Below are positions 8,305-17,788 of a stretch of 64,000 bases of DNA, in pieces; positions within the stretch are counted from its first letter, which is position 1, and the number at the start of each line of letters is the position of its first letter. This stretch comes from Treponema sp. Its GTDB lineage: Bacteria > Spirochaetota > Spirochaetia > Treponematales > Treponemataceae. The stretch is from NCBI GenBank assembly GCA_016288205.1, contig JAEEYO010000034.1, positions 1 to 64,000 on the forward strand. The letters are read 5' to 3'. Made by a program: the position numbers and the translations under genes. The notes under the pieces are model-generated. The model was not told the origin of the DNA, did no database searches, and saw only the letters and a list, made by a program, of their open reading frames with translations.

Positions 8305-8366
8305 AATTTTCTGCTTTTCCTGCACTTTTTTAGGACTTTTCGTCATTTTTGTGGTATAATGTTTCC

Positions 8367-9938
8367 ATGTCGAAGCAGAATTTACCGATTGGAATACAGA
8401 ATTTTGAGGAAATCCGCAATGGAAATTATCTCTATGTGGACAAGACGGATCTCATTTATAAACTTGCCACGGAGGGAAAGCCGTATTTTTTGGCGCGTCC
8501 ACGTCGTTTCGGAAAGAGCCTTTTGATTTCTACGATGAAGTCATATTTTGAAGGACGCAAGGAGCTTTTCGAAGGATTGAAAATCGCCGGGCTTGAGACA
8601 AAATGGGAAGAGCATCCTGTGGTTCACATTGATTTTGGTAGGAACGGTTATGAAACGAATGTGCAGTTGAAAAATTATCTTGACAGTGTGCTTTCCATTT
8701 ATGAGAAGAAATATGGCATAACGCCGAAAATCGATGACTATCCCATCCGCCTTGAATCTATCCTCAGAACGGCAAATGAAAGAACAGGCAAAAAAATCGT
8801 TGTCCTTGTTGATGAATACGACAAGCCGATGCTCGATGCATTGAATACAGGAAATTATGAGCCGAACAGAATCTTGCTTCGAAATTTTTACGGAGTTTTA
8901 AAAGGTTGTGATGAATATTTGAAATTTGTTTTTTTGACCGGAATCACAAAATTTGCGAAGGTGAGCATTTTCAGCGAATTGAACCAGCTCAATGACATCA
9001 GCATGGACAATGAGTACAACACAATCTGCGGAATTTCCCAGGCTGAGTTGGATGAAAATCTCGGAGAGTACATAAAGGACTTTGCGGACTCTGAAAAAAT
9101 CAGCGCGGAGGAATTGAGGGCAAGACTCAAGCAAAAATACGACGGATATCATTTTTCAAGAAAATGGAAAGACGTTTACAATCCCTTCAGCCTTTTGAAC
9201 TCATTCAACAAAAAGGAATTTGATTCCTATTGGTTTCAGACAGCCACGCCAAAAATGCTTTTCGGCCTGATTGAGGAGTCGAACTATGATCTGACGGATG
9301 TTCTTGACGGCGTTGTGTTGAAATCAAGTTCTTTTTCGGATTATCGTGTCGGAGGCGGATCTCTCACACCGATTATTTATCATTCGGGCTATCTTACGAT
9401 AAAGGACTATGACAGGGAGACCGATCTTTTTACGCTCGGCTTTCCGAATGAGGAGGTCCAGGACGGGTTCGTTGAATTTCTTCTTCCGCTCTATACAAAT
9501 ATCCCTGAGGATAGGCTTGGACTTGCGGTGGAAAATTTCAGAAAATCAATCCGCACAAGGGACATTGAATCGCTGATGACACTTTTCTCGGCCGCCATAT
9601 CTGATTTGCCAACCAGACGGAAAGGCAACATGGAGTACGCTTATCAGGTGGCGTTCCATGCGATGCTCAGGATGACCGGATTCGATGTGGAAAGCGAGCA
9701 GCAGATTATCGGGGGCAGGATTGACGTAACGCTGGAGACTGGCGACACTGTTTACATTTTTGAGCTCAAGATGGACTGCGGAAAAGACTGGGGCGAAGTG
9801 GCGGATGCGGCTTTGGAGCAGATTGTGAGAAAGGGATATCCAGAAAAATTCAGTGCGGGCGGGAAAAAGATTTTCAAGATTGCGATTGTGTTTTCCACCG
9901 AGAAGGGCGGAGTTGCCGGGTATAGGGTGGTGGAGTGA
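8367..9938 (+). CDS. AAA-ATPase-like protein with PD-(D/E)XK nuclease domain
   Basis: 523 residues from ATG 8367. The N-terminus (LPIGIQNFEEIRNGNYLYVD) is typical of the AAA-ATPase_like family (PF09820), followed by the P-loop variant ARPRRFGKS (about residues 43-51) and a Walker B-like IVVLVDEYDKPMLD. The C-terminal part is a PD-(D/E)XK_9-type domain, with GGRIDVTLETGDTVYIFELK giving the D..E-x-K nuclease core. Such genes are abundant, mobile-looking accessory genes in gut bacteria, with unknown function. A TATAAT at 8355-8360 ends six bases before the ATG and there is no Shine-Dalgarno, so the mRNA is probably leaderless. Confidence 0.85.
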   Translation: MSKQNLPIGIQNFEEIRNGNYLYVDKTDLIYKLATEGKPYFLARPRRFGKSLLISTMKSYFEGRKELFEGLKIAGLETKWEEHPVVHIDFGRNGYETNVQLKNYLDSVLSIYEKKYGITPKIDDYPIRLESILRTANERTGKKIVVLVDEYDKPMLDALNTGNYEPNRILLRNFYGVLKGCDEYLKFVFLTGITKFAKVSIFSELNQLNDISMDNEYNTICGISQAELDENLGEYIKDFADSEKISAEELRARLKQKYDGYHFSRKWKDVYNPFSLLNSFNKKEFDSYWFQTATPKMLFGLIEESNYDLTDVLDGVVLKSSSFSDYRVGGGSLTPIIYHSGYLTIKDYDRETDLFTLGFPNEEVQDGFVEFLLPLYTNIPEDRLGLAVENFRKSIRTRDIESLMTLFSAAISDLPTRRKGNMEYAYQVAFHAMLRMTGFDVESEQQIIGGRIDVTLETGDTVYIFELKMDCGKDWGEVADAALEQIVRKGYPEKFSAGGKKIFKIAIVFSTEKGGVAGYRVVE

Positions 9939-12176: not shown

Positions 12177-13283
12177 TTATTTAAGCCATCCCTGCTTGTC
12201 GCTCTTTGCATTATTGCACGCCCGGCACAGCATTTGTAAATTTTCAAGAACAGTCCTGCCTCCACGACTCCAGGGAACAATGTGGTCGCCCTGCATTTCA
12301 GCGAATTCAAAATGTTTCTTACAAAGCGGACAGATTCCCTGCTGTTTCTCATACATCTTGCGTTTCATTTTGTCATCGAATTCGCGTAAACTCAAATGGC
12401 TCTCTTTTCCGTCAAACAGATAATAGTAAATGCCCTTGTGATTTGTCACTTCCTCATTGTCAATCAGAGAAAGAATCTCATCCTCAAGTTTCGACGGATC
12501 ATAATCATTGCCGTGGTACTGATTATATAAAATGCCCCAGTCAATATCTTTCATTTCCTTCCTGTAATTCGGAAACAAAGTCTTCACCCATGCAATAACA
12601 AATTGAAAATAAACCCACAGTTCATTCGCATTGGAATCATGCTGATGTTTTCCCATGTAAGCGCAAATCAGCTTGTCATCCTTGCCAGCGTACCATCCCA
12701 ATGCCGTTTCCAGAAGCTCCTGCCTGATGGGATTTCCCTTCACATATTTGTCTCCCAAAAGTTTCGCCGCACAATTTGATTTTGAAAAAATCTTTTTCGC
12801 ATCCGCCGTCCATGAGCCTGCATAAACGGCATTCCTTATTTCCTGCTCAGTGAGTTTTTCCCCGGCAATATTGATTGTTTTGAACCAACTGAGTTTTTCG
12901 CTCTCAGTCCCCTCGCAAAAATAAACCTGCAAATCATAATTCAAAATCCGCTCCTTCTCATCCTCAAGAAGATTTGAAAAATAACGCATATTGTGTGAGA
13001 AACTTCCGGTCACGTAGCGGCAAATTGAAATGGTTCTCTGCTGACCGTCCAAAACCTCATACCGACCGTCTTCACGCACACCCCAGTACATCGTGTTCAA
13101 TGGAAAATTATTCGTCACCGTATCCATCACCGCCTGCTGCTGACTGTCCTTATAGCAAAACTCCCTTTGGTACGGAGGCCGAATGTCCAGTTTACCGCCA
13201 AATCCGACAACACCATTCTCATCATTGTCCTGATATCCGTCCACCAAATTCCTGACCTTGATTGTGTGCAAAGTAATTTTCAT
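12177..13283 (-). CDS. DUF262 and HNH endonuclease protein
   Basis: 368 residues with AGGAGG upstream of the ATG. The N-terminal two-thirds is a DUF262 (GmrS/ParB-like) domain: PPYQREFCYKD, then YEVLDGQQRTISICRY with the DGQQR motif at residues 79-83, which in GmrSD-type enzymes belongs to the NTP-dependent regulatory part. The C-terminus (about residues 318-364) is an HNH nuclease with a zinc-binding frame: CPLCKKHF, GDHIVPWSRGGRT with the catalytic His, and LCRACNNAK. It lies about 100 bases downstream of an EcoRI-family methylase gene on the same strand. The pair looks like a restriction-modification or anti-phage unit. That reading is inferred from domains and adjacency. Confidence 0.85.
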   Translation of the reverse strand: MKITLHTIKVRNLVDGYQDNDENGVVGFGGKLDIRPPYQREFCYKDSQQQAVMDTVTNNFPLNTMYWGVREDGRYEVLDGQQRTISICRYVTGSFSHNMRYFSNLLEDEKERILNYDLQVYFCEGTESEKLSWFKTINIAGEKLTEQEIRNAVYAGSWTADAKKIFSKSNCAAKLLGDKYVKGNPIRQELLETALGWYAGKDDKLICAYMGKHQHDSNANELWVYFQFVIAWVKTLFPNYRKEMKDIDWGILYNQYHGNDYDPSKLEDEILSLIDNEEVTNHKGIYYYLFDGKESHLSLREFDDKMKRKMYEKQQGICPLCKKHFEFAEMQGDHIVPWSRGGRTVLENLQMLCRACNNAKSDKQGWLK

Positions 13284-13297
13284 AATATCCTCCTGAA

Positions 13298-13364
13298 AGG
13301 GGGAAGTCTCCCCCTCGCGTCCACTGCGTTGGCCGCTACCCTCTCTAACGGGGGATTCCCCCGT
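13298..13364. repeat. GC-rich hairpins between nuclease and methylase genes
   Basis: Two stems occur in a roughly 100-base gap: AGGGGGA/TCCCCCT with loop AGTC (13298-13315) and a 17-base perfect palindrome ACGGGGGATTCCCCCGT (13348-13364). They are much more GC-rich than the flanking methylase gene. They may reduce read-through from the methylase into the nuclease gene, or be a dispersed repeat. Confidence 0.6.
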
Positions 13365-13383
13365 AACGCCCCCAACGATATAA

Positions 13384-14328
13384 TTATTTCTTCCGCTTGA
13401 TTAAAATGCGAAAATACGGGCATTTTCCATTTACAGATAAATCCTTTTCATCATTTCCTTTTCTGAATTTAATTATTTCAAATTGATTTGGATTATATTT
13501 GTCCAAAAAAGTAATAGGTACTCCCATCGGTTCATAATAATCTTTTGGTATGTCCAAAACTTGTCCAACATCTATCGCATCATAATTGTCATATTTTGGA
13601 TATTCTTCCGGTGTGTATTCTTTATATGGTATGATTTCCTCTAGTTGTTTTTGTGTCGGTAAGTTTGTATACCAACAGGCCATTATATGCTTTAATTTTT
13701 TGCCGCTTACGAGTTTTTCATACACATTTCCTTCTGGAACTTCAAACCAAAAATCAGAATTCATATTTCTATATCCTATCCATACTTTATTTTCCTTAAT
13801 CAGATTAAAGACTTCTTTATAAGTGACAGCATTTTTATTTCCTATGATTATGAATTTTTTATCAAATTGAACAAGCTGCATAATGTATTCTCTGAAAAGA
13901 CTGAAAGGGGGATTGGTCACAACAATATCAGCCTGCTTCAATATTTCTATACATTCCTGACTCCTGAAGTCACCGTCTCCATTAAGTTGCTTTATTTCGA
14001 TTGTTGAAAAATCTGTTGAAGTTGAATCGTTCGGATTTCCTCGGTAGTCTATCCAAACAGCCTTTTCACAATTATGCTGGCTGAATAAATCTGCATCTTG
14101 ATTTTTGTAACATGTGGTAATCAGTCGCTTGAGCTTGAAATTATTGAAGTTCAATGCAAAAAATCTGAAAAAGTTCGAGACACGCGGATCATCACAGTTG
14201 CAAAGAATTGTTTTGTTTTCAAAAAAATCTTTATAATGAAATAATTCCTTTTCAATATCAGATATTTGCGTATAATACTCATCATTTCTCTCAGAGTCCG
14301 CTTTTCTTAATCCTGACTTGCTTGTCAT
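13384..14328 (-). CDS. EcoRI-family adenine-specific DNA methyltransferase
   Basis: 314 residues, about the usual length for the family (PF13651). The N-terminus (NDEYYTQISDIEKEL) and TILCNCDDPRVSNFF are typical of M.EcoRI-like enzymes, and VVTNPPFSLF with the NPPF catalytic motif at residues 139-142 marks N6-adenine methylation. It should protect host DNA from a cognate nuclease; the neighbouring DUF262-HNH gene is the only candidate here. The start has AGGAG five bases upstream. The gene is AT-rich compared with the core genes, which suggests transfer. The intergenic region with the divergent Xre gene holds four evenly spaced TACCAAW repeats. Confidence 0.9.
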   Translation of the reverse strand: MTSKSGLRKADSERNDEYYTQISDIEKELFHYKDFFENKTILCNCDDPRVSNFFRFFALNFNNFKLKRLITTCYKNQDADLFSQHNCEKAVWIDYRGNPNDSTSTDFSTIEIKQLNGDGDFRSQECIEILKQADIVVTNPPFSLFREYIMQLVQFDKKFIIIGNKNAVTYKEVFNLIKENKVWIGYRNMNSDFWFEVPEGNVYEKLVSGKKLKHIMACWYTNLPTQKQLEEIIPYKEYTPEEYPKYDNYDAIDVGQVLDIPKDYYEPMGVPITFLDKYNPNQFEIIKFRKGNDEKDLSVNGKCPYFRILIKRKK

Positions 14329-14342
14329 ATAGGCTCCTGTTG

Positions 14343-14440
14343 TACCAAAAGGGTGTAAAGATTATAAAAATACCAATAGGTAATTTTATAATATAATAAT
14401 ACCAAATGACCATAAAATAAAGTGGAAAATACCAAAAAGT
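14343..14440. promoter_or_regulatory. Four phased TACCAAW repeats between methylase and Xre genes
   Basis: TACCAA starts at 14343, 14371, 14400 and 14430, spacings of 28, 29 and 30 bases. The second copy is a dyad, TACCAATAGGTA. The copies cover the whole divergent intergenic region, and the second lies upstream of the minus-strand TATAAT box (near 14363-14368). They are likely operators for the Xre protein. Confidence 0.75.
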
Positions 14441-14454
14441 TATAGATTTTTTAC

Positions 14455-14802
14455 ATGAACTTTTGGGAAAATGTTGATCAGGAATTAAAATTCAAAGGAA
14501 TGGAACGAAAAGAATTAGGCAGTCTAGCAGGATTTCCAGAATCATATATTTCAAAAGGCATAACGCGTAAAAGTTCTCCATCTGCTGATCTTGCCGTAAA
14601 AATCGCGTCGGTGCTCGGGGTTAGCGTGGAGTATCTTGTCACGGGGGCAAACAGCTCGTCAAAGACCAATGAGCAGGAAACGGCAGAGCAGCTCAGATTA
14701 TACAGAAAACATTCCGAAATCATCAAAAAATGTGAAAAGCTCAGTCCAGAAAAAGAAAAAATCCTGCTTGAGTTTCTGGAAAATTTTTGTCCTCCGAATT
14801 AA
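14455..14802 (+). CDS. Xre-family transcriptional regulator (controller-like)
   Basis: 115 residues. An N-terminal helix-turn-helix of the Xre/Cro type covers about residues 1-65 (MERKELGSLAGFPESYISKG, then DLAVKIASVLGVSVEYLVTG). The C-terminal half is a short charged helix (KCEKLSPEKEKILLEFLEN) suited to dimerisation. It is divergent from the EcoRI-family methylase and shares an intergenic region with four TACCAAW repeats, the position expected of a restriction-modification controller protein. A TATAGA box ends eight bases before the ATG and no ribosome site is visible, so it is probably leaderless, which is common for controller genes. Confidence 0.8.
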   Translation: MNFWENVDQELKFKGMERKELGSLAGFPESYISKGITRKSSPSADLAVKIASVLGVSVEYLVTGANSSSKTNEQETAEQLRLYRKHSEIIKKCEKLSPEKEKILLEFLENFCPPN

Positions 14803-14930: not shown

Positions 14931-16034
14931 ATGAACGGAATTACAGATGGTGGCGTAGTTGGTAGAAAACACTATATCGACAATTTAAGATGGTTTACAG
15001 TTGTCCTTGTCGTCTTTTACCATGTTTTTTATATGTACAATGGACAGGGAATCAGGGGGACGCTCGGAAAGATAACGAATCTTGATGTCCAGTATTACGA
15101 TGTGTTCCAGTACATTGTTTATCCGTGGTTTATGACGCTCCTTTTTATTGTTTCGGGAATCAGCTCCAGGTATTCGCTTAACAATCACACTGGAAAGGAA
15201 TTCATCAAGAGCAGGACGAACAAGCTGCTTGTGCCGGTGACGCTTGGATTAATCACATTTCAATTCATACAGGGCTACATCAATATCTCTCTTTCTGGAG
15301 TTACCGACAATCCTGAGATGCCCTTGGTCGGAAAAATCATCGCCTGCATTTTGAGCGGAATAGGTGTTTTGTGGTATCTCCAAATGCTCTGGCTTTTTTC
15401 ACTTGCGATTGTCCTTGTCAAAAAAATAGACAAGGATCGCCTCTGGAATCTTTGCAAAAAGACTCCTATTTGGGTGTTGATTATAATCAGCGTTCTTGTG
15501 TACGGGGCAGGTCAGATTTTGAACACCCCATTGATTGTCAGCTACAGATTCGGCTTGTACTTCCTTGCGTTCCTGCTCGGATATTTTGTTTTTTCACATG
15601 ATGAAGTGATTGAGCGGATGAAGAAAGTCTTTTGGCTTTTTGCCATTGTTGCCGTGGGTCTGTGCGTTGCATTCTGCATTGTCTATTTCGGACAGAACTA
15701 CGCTGATACTCCCGTGTACCGCTCGCCGCTCTATCTTTTCTTTACATGGTTTGGAAGCCTTGCCATGATTTCAGTATTTGCAAAATTCTTCGACTTTGAG
15801 ACCCCCTTTACAAAATGGATGAGTTCTCACAGCTGGGGACTTTATGTTTTCCATTATCTTGGAATTTCCGCCGTCGCACTTTTCCTTGCAAAACCAGCTT
15901 ACATTCCGGCATGGGCTTCTTATCTTTTGAGCACCGTTTTGGGATTTGCCCTGGCTTATGGATTGTATTTTATCATCTCGCGGATTCCCTTTTTCAGATG
16001 GACTGTGCTTGGAATTACAAAAAAGAAAAAATGA
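14931..16034 (+). CDS. Acyltransferase-3 family membrane protein
   Basis: 367 residues with GGAGG six bases upstream. It begins with the acyltransferase-3 (PF01757) pattern: KHYIDNLRWFTVVLVVFYHVFYMY, where the DNLRW and FYHV elements are family hallmarks and the His is essential in OafA-type enzymes. About ten hydrophobic segments follow, with a second conserved-looking stretch near the C-terminus (SHSWGLYVFHYLGI). The family moves acetyl or other acyl groups onto exported sugars, for example in polysaccharides or lipids, at the inner membrane. It stands alone, so the acceptor is unknown. Confidence 0.85.
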   Translation: MNGITDGGVVGRKHYIDNLRWFTVVLVVFYHVFYMYNGQGIRGTLGKITNLDVQYYDVFQYIVYPWFMTLLFIVSGISSRYSLNNHTGKEFIKSRTNKLLVPVTLGLITFQFIQGYINISLSGVTDNPEMPLVGKIIACILSGIGVLWYLQMLWLFSLAIVLVKKIDKDRLWNLCKKTPIWVLIIISVLVYGAGQILNTPLIVSYRFGLYFLAFLLGYFVFSHDEVIERMKKVFWLFAIVAVGLCVAFCIVYFGQNYADTPVYRSPLYLFFTWFGSLAMISVFAKFFDFETPFTKWMSSHSWGLYVFHYLGISAVALFLAKPAYIPAWASYLLSTVLGFALAYGLYFIISRIPFFRWTVLGITKKKK

Positions 16035-16135: not shown

Positions 16136-16198
16136 TCTACGGGGGAATTCCAATCAGAGTGGGATGCATCCAATCAATTTTGCCGGACTGGAGAAGTA

Positions 16199-16813
16199 AT
16201 GAACAGTTCTATTAAAAACATCAGTTGTGAAGATGAAGAAGAAGAGGACAAGAAGAAGGAATCAGGTCCTGATCCTCTTGCTGAAAAATTTCTTAAAACA
16301 CGCCAGATTCTTTTGAGCGGTGAAATCAATGAGGAAAATGCCGATAAGGTGGTCCGCCAGCTTTTGATTCTTGAAGCTGATAGCGACGAGCCTATTTACA
16401 TTTATATTGACAGCCCAGGAGGAGACGTTGACGCAGGATTCGCCATTTTCGACACGATCCGCTTCATAAACGCGCCGGTCTACACCATCGGATGGGGTCT
16501 CATCGCCTCTGCCGCAGCCCTGATTTTGCTCGCAGCACCGAAGGAGCGCCGTCTTGGACTTCCCCACAGCCATTATCTGATTCACCAGCCCTCAAGCGGA
16601 ATGAAGGGTGTGGCCACGGACATTGAGATCCACGCCGCCGAAATCGAAAAGACCAAGGCCCTGCTGAATGAGATTATCGCGAACGAGACGGGAACTCCCG
16701 TTGAAAAGGTCGCAAAGGACACTGACCGCGATTATTGGCTGAATGCCGAGGAAGCAAAGACCTACGGTTTGATCAGCTCGGTCATCTCAAAGCGTTCTGA
16801 TTTGAAGAAATAG
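16199..16813 (+). CDS. clpP: ClpP-family serine protease
   Basis: 204 residues with GGAGAAG before the ATG. The core is ClpP: IYIYIDSPGGDVDAGFAIFD, then GLIASAAALILLAAP with the nucleophile at Ser104, LPHSHYLIHQP with the catalytic His129, and the DTDRDYW segment that carries the Asp. The triad therefore looks intact. The sequence around the serine lacks the usual GQAASMGA, and an acidic extension (about residues 11-21, EDEEEEDKKK) precedes the fold. It could be the second, divergent ClpP paralogue of a spirochaete with two. A Clp ATPase is not nearby. The downstream GNAT gene begins 18 bases later and is probably co-transcribed. Confidence 0.85.
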   Translation: MNSSIKNISCEDEEEEDKKKESGPDPLAEKFLKTRQILLSGEINEENADKVVRQLLILEADSDEPIYIYIDSPGGDVDAGFAIFDTIRFINAPVYTIGWGLIASAAALILLAAPKERRLGLPHSHYLIHQPSSGMKGVATDIEIHAAEIEKTKALLNEIIANETGTPVEKVAKDTDRDYWLNAEEAKTYGLISSVISKRSDLKK

Positions 16814-16831
16814 GGACGCGCGGGGACTGTA

Positions 16832-17788
16832 ATGCAATTTGAACTTACGGATGAACTGAGTGACAACATCATCTTTTCAATGGAGGATCAGAGCTCAATC
16901 TGGTACATAGATTCCAGGGACAGCTCCATCCTTTCCGACGAGATGATGCGCGAGCTGGAACTTGAGACAGACGACTCTGAATCCGGGGACATCTTTTACA
17001 ATCTCCCGCATTGGACAAGCGAAGACGGCTATGAGCTTATGGCCGATTTCACAAATAATCTTCATTCACCGCTTGCCCGTACTGATTTGAGGCGGGTTTT
17101 GAACAGCGGAAGGGGGGTGTTCAGAAATTTTAAGAATGTTTTAAAAGAGTATCCTGAGGTTGAGAAAAAATGGTTCTCCTTCAAAAATCAAAAGATGAAG
17201 GAACGCGTCGCCTCTTGGTACAACAGTCTGCGTGAATCCTGGGGAATGGAGCGTCTGGAATCTGAGTCAGGAGATGATGTTCAGGAAACTGACGAGCTGC
17301 TTGAGAATGACTTTGTATTTAGTGATTGGAATTATTCCAAAGACCAGGAGGAACTTGAGCGCGGAATAAAGGAGGTTTCGGACGATTTTTGCCGGCAATC
17401 CTCAACGACCATTGACCGCAATGTGGAGGCAGCCATAGCATTTTTGCAGGACAGGCACTCCAAGCTTTCGGAAAGCAGCGGAAAATCAGGTTTGGTTTGC
17501 AGGACTCCCGACGGAGAATTTTCCGGTTGCATACTGTCAGCACAGTGTCCGCTTCCAGCAGAAAATACCGTTTTCATTACGGATTTTTTCGTCGTTCAAA
17601 GATTTCGCGGATTAGGAATTGCCAGAATCCTGCTTTCAAAATGGATTGAGCATTTGAAGGCTGATGGAGTCCGGTGGATTTTTATATCAGACGCAATGGC
17701 CCCCGATGTCGTTAAACCTCTGCTTGAGCACTTTGGTTTTTTCAGGGCAGTCACGGGCTATGCTGCGGATTTGTCAACGATTTTTTGA
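16832..17788 (+). CDS. GNAT-domain protein with long unknown N-terminal region
   Basis: 318 residues. The C-terminal third is a GNAT acetyltransferase fold: VFITDFFVVQRFRGLGIARILLSKWIEHL contains the acetyl-CoA pyrophosphate-binding R-G-L-G-I-A motif (around residue 260), followed by LLEHFGFFRAVTGY, the usual GFxxxxxY ending. The first 190 residues are acidic and mostly helical and match no family I know. It follows clpP by 18 bases, so the two are likely one operon. Substrate unknown. Confidence 0.75.
   Translation: MQFELTDELSDNIIFSMEDQSSIWYIDSRDSSILSDEMMRELELETDDSESGDIFYNLPHWTSEDGYELMADFTNNLHSPLARTDLRRVLNSGRGVFRNFKNVLKEYPEVEKKWFSFKNQKMKERVASWYNSLRESWGMERLESESGDDVQETDELLENDFVFSDWNYSKDQEELERGIKEVSDDFCRQSSTTIDRNVEAAIAFLQDRHSKLSESSGKSGLVCRTPDGEFSGCILSAQCPLPAENTVFITDFFVVQRFRGLGIARILLSKWIEHLKADGVRWIFISDAMAPDVVKPLLEHFGFFRAVTGYAADLSTIF

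Follow-up and report, generated by a model that had tools for sequence, protein, structure and literature searches.

Four putative operators at fixed positions upstream of an Xre regulator gene suggest a probable reusable divergent switch in Treponema

Between a DNA methyltransferase gene and a divergent xre regulator gene of a Treponema genome, the hexamer TACCAA occurs four times at nearly regular intervals, which raises the question of whether these repeats are operators through which one small regulator controls both directions, as a preliminary description had proposed. The window that we analysed is a stretch of 64,000 nucleotides. In it the xre gene lies divergent from the methyltransferase gene, and a restriction-enzyme homologue follows the methyltransferase gene on the minus strand. 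The features of the locus are given below, with family positions counted from the xre ATG.

12177-13283, minus strand: probable restriction enzyme of 368 aa, GmrSD_N and HNH (PADLOC REase_II, 470 bits; Pfam)
13384-14328, minus strand: EcoRI-type adenine-specific DNA methyltransferase of 314 aa (PF13651, 393 bits; PADLOC MTase_II)
14334-14338, minus strand: methyltransferase ribosome-binding site AGGAG, from the sequence
14343-14354, plus strand: putative operator site 1, TACCAAAAGGGT, in the methyltransferase leader; family peak near -106
14371-14382, no strand assigned: putative operator site 2, TACCAATAGGTA, a full dyad over the predicted methyltransferase start point; family peak near -78
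14385-14390, minus strand: predicted methyltransferase -10, TATAAA, from the family register; predicted start at about 14378, inside site 2
14400-14411, plus strand: putative operator site 3, TACCAAATGACC, overlapping the predicted methyltransferase -35; family peak near -49
14407-14412, minus strand: predicted methyltransferase -35, TGGTCA, 16 bp from the -10; family register -71/-48
14430-14441, plus strand: putative operator site 4, TACCAAAAAGTT, in the spacer of the predicted xre promoter, its last base being the first of the -10; family peak near -19
14441-14446, plus strand: predicted xre -10, TATAGA, from the family -10 peak at -13/-12; predicted start at or near the ATG
14455-14802, plus strand: Xre regulator of 115 aa with HTH_3 and Phage_CI_repr matches, an HTH with a predicted recognition helix at residues 30-38 and two C-terminal helices

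The four plus-strand copies of TACCAA start, as first described, at 14343, 14371, 14400 and 14430, giving spacings of 28, 29 and 30; counted as a 12-bp site, the fourth copy ends at 14441, one base beyond the interval 14343-14440 originally given. The claim that such spacing is not expected by chance was borne out, as four copies of TACCAA occurred together in none of 20,000 dinucleotide-shuffled versions of the 126-nt intergenic stretch, and this is the sole 6-mer in the window to form a run of four at 27-31 nt, with no such run in 20 shuffled windows. Over the whole window TACCAA is not enriched (23 found, 19.3 expected). The second copy is indeed a complete dyad, TACC-N4-GGTA, and the best of the four, with sites 1, 3 and 4 each having one good half-site; site 1 is the weakest and has the least conserved spacing. 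As had been noted, the intervals come close to three helical turns without matching them exactly: with 10.5 bp to the turn they amount to 2.67, 2.76 and 2.86, and neighbouring sites would therefore lie about 120, 86 and 51 degrees short of the same helix face. A search of Rfam found no RNA family between 12000 and 15000.

Comparison with relatives carrying the same gene pair was the check that the preliminary description proposed, and the sites and most of their spacing are conserved in loci that share the recognition helix. Among 200 genomes of the genus that were searched, 46 carry this methyltransferase, at 59 places in all, with the restriction homologue nearby in 51 and a divergent Xre in 32; several of the places lacking one or the other lie at contig ends. 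The start codons of the methyltransferase and xre genes in these 32 loci are 116-146 bp apart; in one of them an alternative start of the methyltransferase would make the distance 95. TACC-type sites are retained where the helix is FPESYISKGI, and relatives have TACCATATGGTA, TACCCATTGGTA or TACCAATTGGTA as their dyad near -78; at the same place the helix FSVTNIGQGI goes with the dyad TCAGTAATTACTGA and the helix FSLTNFNLGI with TTTACTATAGTAAA. The distance from site 1 to site 2 is only 20-22 bp in three loci (L058, L059 and L080), and one locus with the same helix type (L012) has a single TACCAATTGGTA and no clear array. Nine of the Xre relatives have named records, eight titled Treponema and one Spirochaetales, with the ruminant forestomach named in three titles. 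In one methyltransferase-linked locus (L142) the operator near -49 is ATGAATTCAATCAT and hence contains GAATTC, which we take to be the site expected for an EcoRI-type enzyme; if so, methylation could touch this operator.

To describe the arrangement across the family whatever the cargo, we used 135-nt regions upstream of family members in or near Treponema (116 of 125 kept after dereplication at no more than 75% identity) and collected all pairs of 12-mers with at least 9 of 12 positions in agreement, counting both strands and separations of 27-31 nt. Irrespective of sequence, the centres of these pairs cluster at about -106, -78, -49 and -19 relative to the xre ATG. The peaks stand roughly six- to twelve-fold above shuffles, with counts near background between them, and, because repetition in the real regions exceeds that in shuffles at all lags (median 1.8-fold) and is thus understated by the shuffled controls, it is the positions that constitute the evidence. 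The profile is little changed when the ten TACC-class loci are removed (106 loci). An independent set of loci from further genera and families of the order (27 of 33 regions kept, one of them mostly N), scored at these positions as fixed beforehand, gave counts of 29, 76, 82 and 55, where shuffles averaged 6.5, 11.3, 11.0 and 6.0. Searching each region with its own site 2 word, excluding four near-identical partners (L106, L115, L121 and L143), placed 41 of 84 further hits near -107, -49 or -20, compared with a mean of 17.6 and a maximum of 30 in 200 shuffles; words of another class gave 19%. A per-position average of dyad symmetry, for which 54 of 93 regions were used after dereplication, gave a weaker signal than the pair test, its windowed count exceeding the shuffle maximum only at -78 (0.45 of 22 against 0.32, and 0.31 of 32 against 0.28) and, for the 22, at -21 (0.36). 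Fitted spacings average 27.7, 29.4 and 29.4, with a scatter of a few bp, and site 1 is the loosest. Since the four positions are kept across the family, the 28-29-30 pattern of the window is one instance of a family-wide ruler; their persistence even where the operator sequence differs supports, at the level of sequence comparison, the interpretation of the repeats as a regulator's array.

The sequence of the repeats changes with the regulator. Regions upstream of the ten loci with the helix motif F[PD][EDP]SYISKG hold 4.6 TACC/GGTA each, compared with 0.60 in the 106 others, of which five have at least three. Over 141 loci (regions containing N were left out here and in the promoter analysis), operator similarity tracks helix identity once the remainder of the protein is accounted for, with a partial r of 0.275 against a maximum of 0.061 in 500 permutations, a test that removes shared ancestry only partly. 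The strongest ties to the operator are those of residues 30, 34, 31, 28 and 38, and the predicted third, or recognition, helix spans 30-38. We rejected a stand-alone repeat element unrelated to Xre because the repeat sequence changes with the recognition helix. In a separate comparison, the Xre proteins of L051 and L003 have different recognition helices and nearly the same C-terminal part (EQLRLYRKHSEIIKKCEQLSPEKEKLLATIADNF), which suggests that DNA-binding and C-terminal parts have been swapped among Xre proteins.

Promoter signals occupy equally defined positions in the 141 loci. On the cargo strand, -10 and -35 elements concentrate in two registers: -63/-40, with 44 and 46 loci in three-base bins where about 3 are expected, and -71/-48, the register of the window, with 26 and 25 loci where about 2.5 are expected. 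On the xre strand, -10 elements peak at -13/-12, with 21 and 19 loci where 4 are expected, and there is no clear -35. A ribosome-binding site precedes xre in one of the 141 loci, and is found before the divergent ATG in 57 of 115 (4.5 in shuffles). The -10 position together with this near-absence of ribosome-binding sites indicates that xre genes are probably leaderless. The -35 of xre is weak in these loci, and in the window the methyltransferase -35 matches the consensus at four of six positions by count.

We propose, and consider likely, that the adjacent Xre protein uses the four repeats as its operators, and that its dimers would repress the divergent cargo from sites 2 and 3 and the regulator's own gene from site 4. 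Because the predicted methyltransferase promoter is overlapped by sites 2 and 3 and the predicted xre promoter by site 4, two-way control is the natural reading, and the earlier suggestion that one small regulator governs both directions is thus supported in silico. From the sites, their positions, their covariation with the helix and the promoter signals we infer the following course of binding, repression and timing. An Xre dimer would read a 12-14 bp dyad, here TACC-N4-GGTA; at sites 2 and 3, over the start point and the -35, it would shut the methyltransferase-restriction promoter, and at site 4, on the leaderless xre promoter, it would limit its own expression, while site 1 in the methyltransferase leader may act as a roadblock or an extra docking site. 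On entry of the locus into a naive cell the operators would be empty, allowing an early burst of methyltransferase, and the subsequent accumulation of Xre would then damp the system. Several observations count against this proposal: the shift of site 1 in some members of the class, the weak arrays at three of the seven readable paralogues in the window's genome, the locus of the same helix type without a clear array, the five loci outside the TACC class with at least three TACC/GGTA, the higher repetitiveness of real regions than of shuffles, the partial removal of shared ancestry in the covariation test, the imperfect methyltransferase -35 and the weak xre -35.

The weak xre -35 would fit an activator-repressor switch of the controller-protein or lambda CI type, in which a low dose of Xre would activate the weak leaderless xre promoter from site 3 and a high dose would repress it from site 4, with sites 2 and 3 repressing the cargo. 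We regard this as a possibility to be taken seriously, though not the probable one. The centre of site 3 lies about 48 bp before the predicted xre start, farther away than the activating lambda site, at about 42 bp, and site 4 sits on the xre promoter itself. The missing good -35 is nevertheless what an activated promoter should have, and C.Csp231I is reported first to activate and later to repress its own leaderless gene (PMC4824078).

It is also conceivable, but in our view unlikely, that the sites mainly serve a single direction, either xre self-limitation or cargo control, and that the rest of the array reflects cooperative, filament-like binding with a spacing rule of its own. Comparing the two register classes (59 and 44 loci), the cargo promoter shifts by 8 bp and the operators move by just 0.5-2.1 bp; the spacing is therefore not dictated by the cargo promoter, which speaks for such binding and hints that the array has its own rule. 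Against it, neighbouring sites at 28-30 bp do not share one helix face, and the spacings scatter by a few bp across the family. Although repeats arise easily in AT-rich DNA and the intergenic gap is only 25% G+C, chance repetition is rejected as exceedingly improbable by the shuffles of the gap and of the window and by the position-specific signal in the family.

Returning to the proposed repressor array, its layout resembles that of the lambda immunity region, where several dyads lie between divergent promoters: the leaderless promoter of the repressor is covered by one of them and the opposing promoter by others. The likeness to CI and the right operator extends to the CI-like HTH (Phage_CI_repr), with the P22 c2 and 434 repressors among the fold matches. 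Lambda differs in having three operator sites at about 23-24 bp and a Cro partner; here there are four at about 29 bp, no Cro, a methyltransferase as the divergent gene, and no relative in phage records.

The C proteins of type II restriction-modification systems, especially C.Csp231I/C.EcoO109I and C.Kpn2I, share with this Xre the position of a small HTH protein beside type II M and R genes, dyad operators in its own promoter region (in silico here) and a leaderless gene (common, although not universal, among C proteins, and deduced here from promoter position). Closest in build is C.Csp231I, which has a bundle of five core helices with two C-terminal helices, a leaderless gene and two CTAAG-n5-CTTAG dyads with an 18-nt spacer (PMC3115060, PMC4824078). 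Closest in layout is Kpn2I, whose C and M genes are divergent, with repression at the -35 of the M promoter (PMC6237814). The systems differ in that there are two sites there and four here, at about 28-30 bp centre to centre as opposed to 33 by count for Csp231I; in that a typical C gene is upstream of and co-transcribed with R (Kpn2I being the known exception), while here R follows M on the opposite strand; and in that most members of the Treponema Xre family face cargo other than restriction-modification genes. Given the absence of the typical C-R operon and marginal sequence similarity (E 0.084 for C.Csp231I; fold matches to C.BclI, C.Csp231I and C.AhdI at E 0.006-0.012), we do not file the Xre protein as a C protein.

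A functional parallel is RptR, described as a small dimeric repressor of type I restriction-modification islands of Gammaproteobacteria, of 79 aa and bZIP-like, which binds several direct repeats with a short palindrome, three TAGCTA repeats (PMC12255303). It differs in protein and in site, the site here being TACC-N4-GGTA and the neighbouring genes matching type II models. Similarity to RstR of filamentous phage is limited to the HTH (29.4 bits, far below the NF041951 cut-off of 80), with no filamentous-phage cargo here, and similarity to CapH to a PADLOC capH score of 35.6 bits and a fold match to the CapH N-domain, beside cargo that is not CBASS. TrtA of T. denticola is the Xre protein of a relative; its binding to a target is reported as unconfirmed (PMC12724145), and it thus supplies no operator. 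Our literature search, which did not extend to a 2009 paper on systematic C-protein prediction, found no paper on such an array in Treponema.

The family is widespread in the order. Its profile matches in 237 of 390 genomes and 54 of 91 genera there, and in 18 of 198 genomes drawn from the phylum, 14 of which belong to the same order. In another order, one genome has five members, of which at least one (L305) has such an array; no convincing array accompanies two distant Xre hits from other parts of the phylum (L311 and L312). The window's own genome encodes ten members, its Xre and nine paralogues. Upstream regions were readable for seven of the nine, no start having been found for the other two, and four show clear repeats of different sequence in the same places and three weak ones. 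One Treponema plasmid record holds a relative. No relative was found in phage records and none was confirmed in viral contigs, and on these grounds we rejected a phage origin by sequence. Nor do we claim a genome-wide TACC regulon, as TACCNNNNGGTA occurs at 16 places in the genome and a reversed control pattern at 34; the one other genomic copy read in its context, TACCTTTTGGTA in L234, has no TACC array in its surroundings.

A divergent ORF was absent, by a mechanical rule, in 9 of 116 regions, and the cargo scan took 66 of 107 divergent ORFs, leaving out most EcoRI-type methyltransferases and short ORFs. These 66 proteins include nine with Listeria-Bacteroides repeats, four N6/N4 methylases, three C5 methylases, three acyltransferases, three with BspA-type leucine-rich repeats, and others. 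Elsewhere in the family the cargo is lipoproteins, other methylases or acyltransferases, and restriction-modification is thus one use of a general module. On balance we favour the view that treponemes hold a large family of mutually insulated, lambda-like four-operator switches in which a single ruler (-106, -78, -49 and -19 from the leaderless xre start) is combined with many operator sequences, each matched to its own helix, and with divergent cargo that can be interchanged (restriction-modification, surface lipoproteins, acyltransferases), a genome often having several paralogues. By analogy, a four-operator ruler with changing specificity could be seen as a variant on the controller-protein or lambda-OR design.

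If so, many Treponema genomes would carry several copies of one switch design in which the spacing is kept and the address label rewritten, and most members would come with a predicted operator suitable for gel-shift testing without prior genetics. More than 100 natural helix-operator pairs would be available from which to work out how this HTH recognises its sites, and the family would offer a natural collection of orthogonal repressor-operator pairs on which an HTH recognition code could be tested. The design would also explain the timing of a restriction-modification system whose regulator is on the opposite strand, and offer a handle on when spirochaete lipoproteins and acyltransferases switch on.

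Several minor features of the neighbourhood were recorded. A membrane acyltransferase (Acyl_transf_3) is encoded at 14931-16034, after xre, and similar acyltransferases, are among the divergent cargo of other family members, for example L005 and L066, judged by their N-termini. A protein with AAA-ATPase_like and PDDEXK_9 matches is encoded at 8349-9938, within several kb of the restriction-modification genes. Two G+C-rich inverted repeats, GGGGGAAGTCTCCCCC and ACGGGGGATTCCCCCGT, lie in the interval that separates the methyltransferase gene from the restriction gene (13284-13383); they have no Rfam match and may be an attenuator or a repeat element. Finally, comparison of the window with L106 (G005) around 13384-14781 shows 94-100% identity per 100-nt bin in the methyltransferase gene, the operator array and the HTH part of xre, and more divergence elsewhere (85-89% in the C-terminal part of xre, 89% in the restriction gene and 85% over 16187-17000); the methyltransferase, the array and the xre HTH may have been exchanged as a unit.
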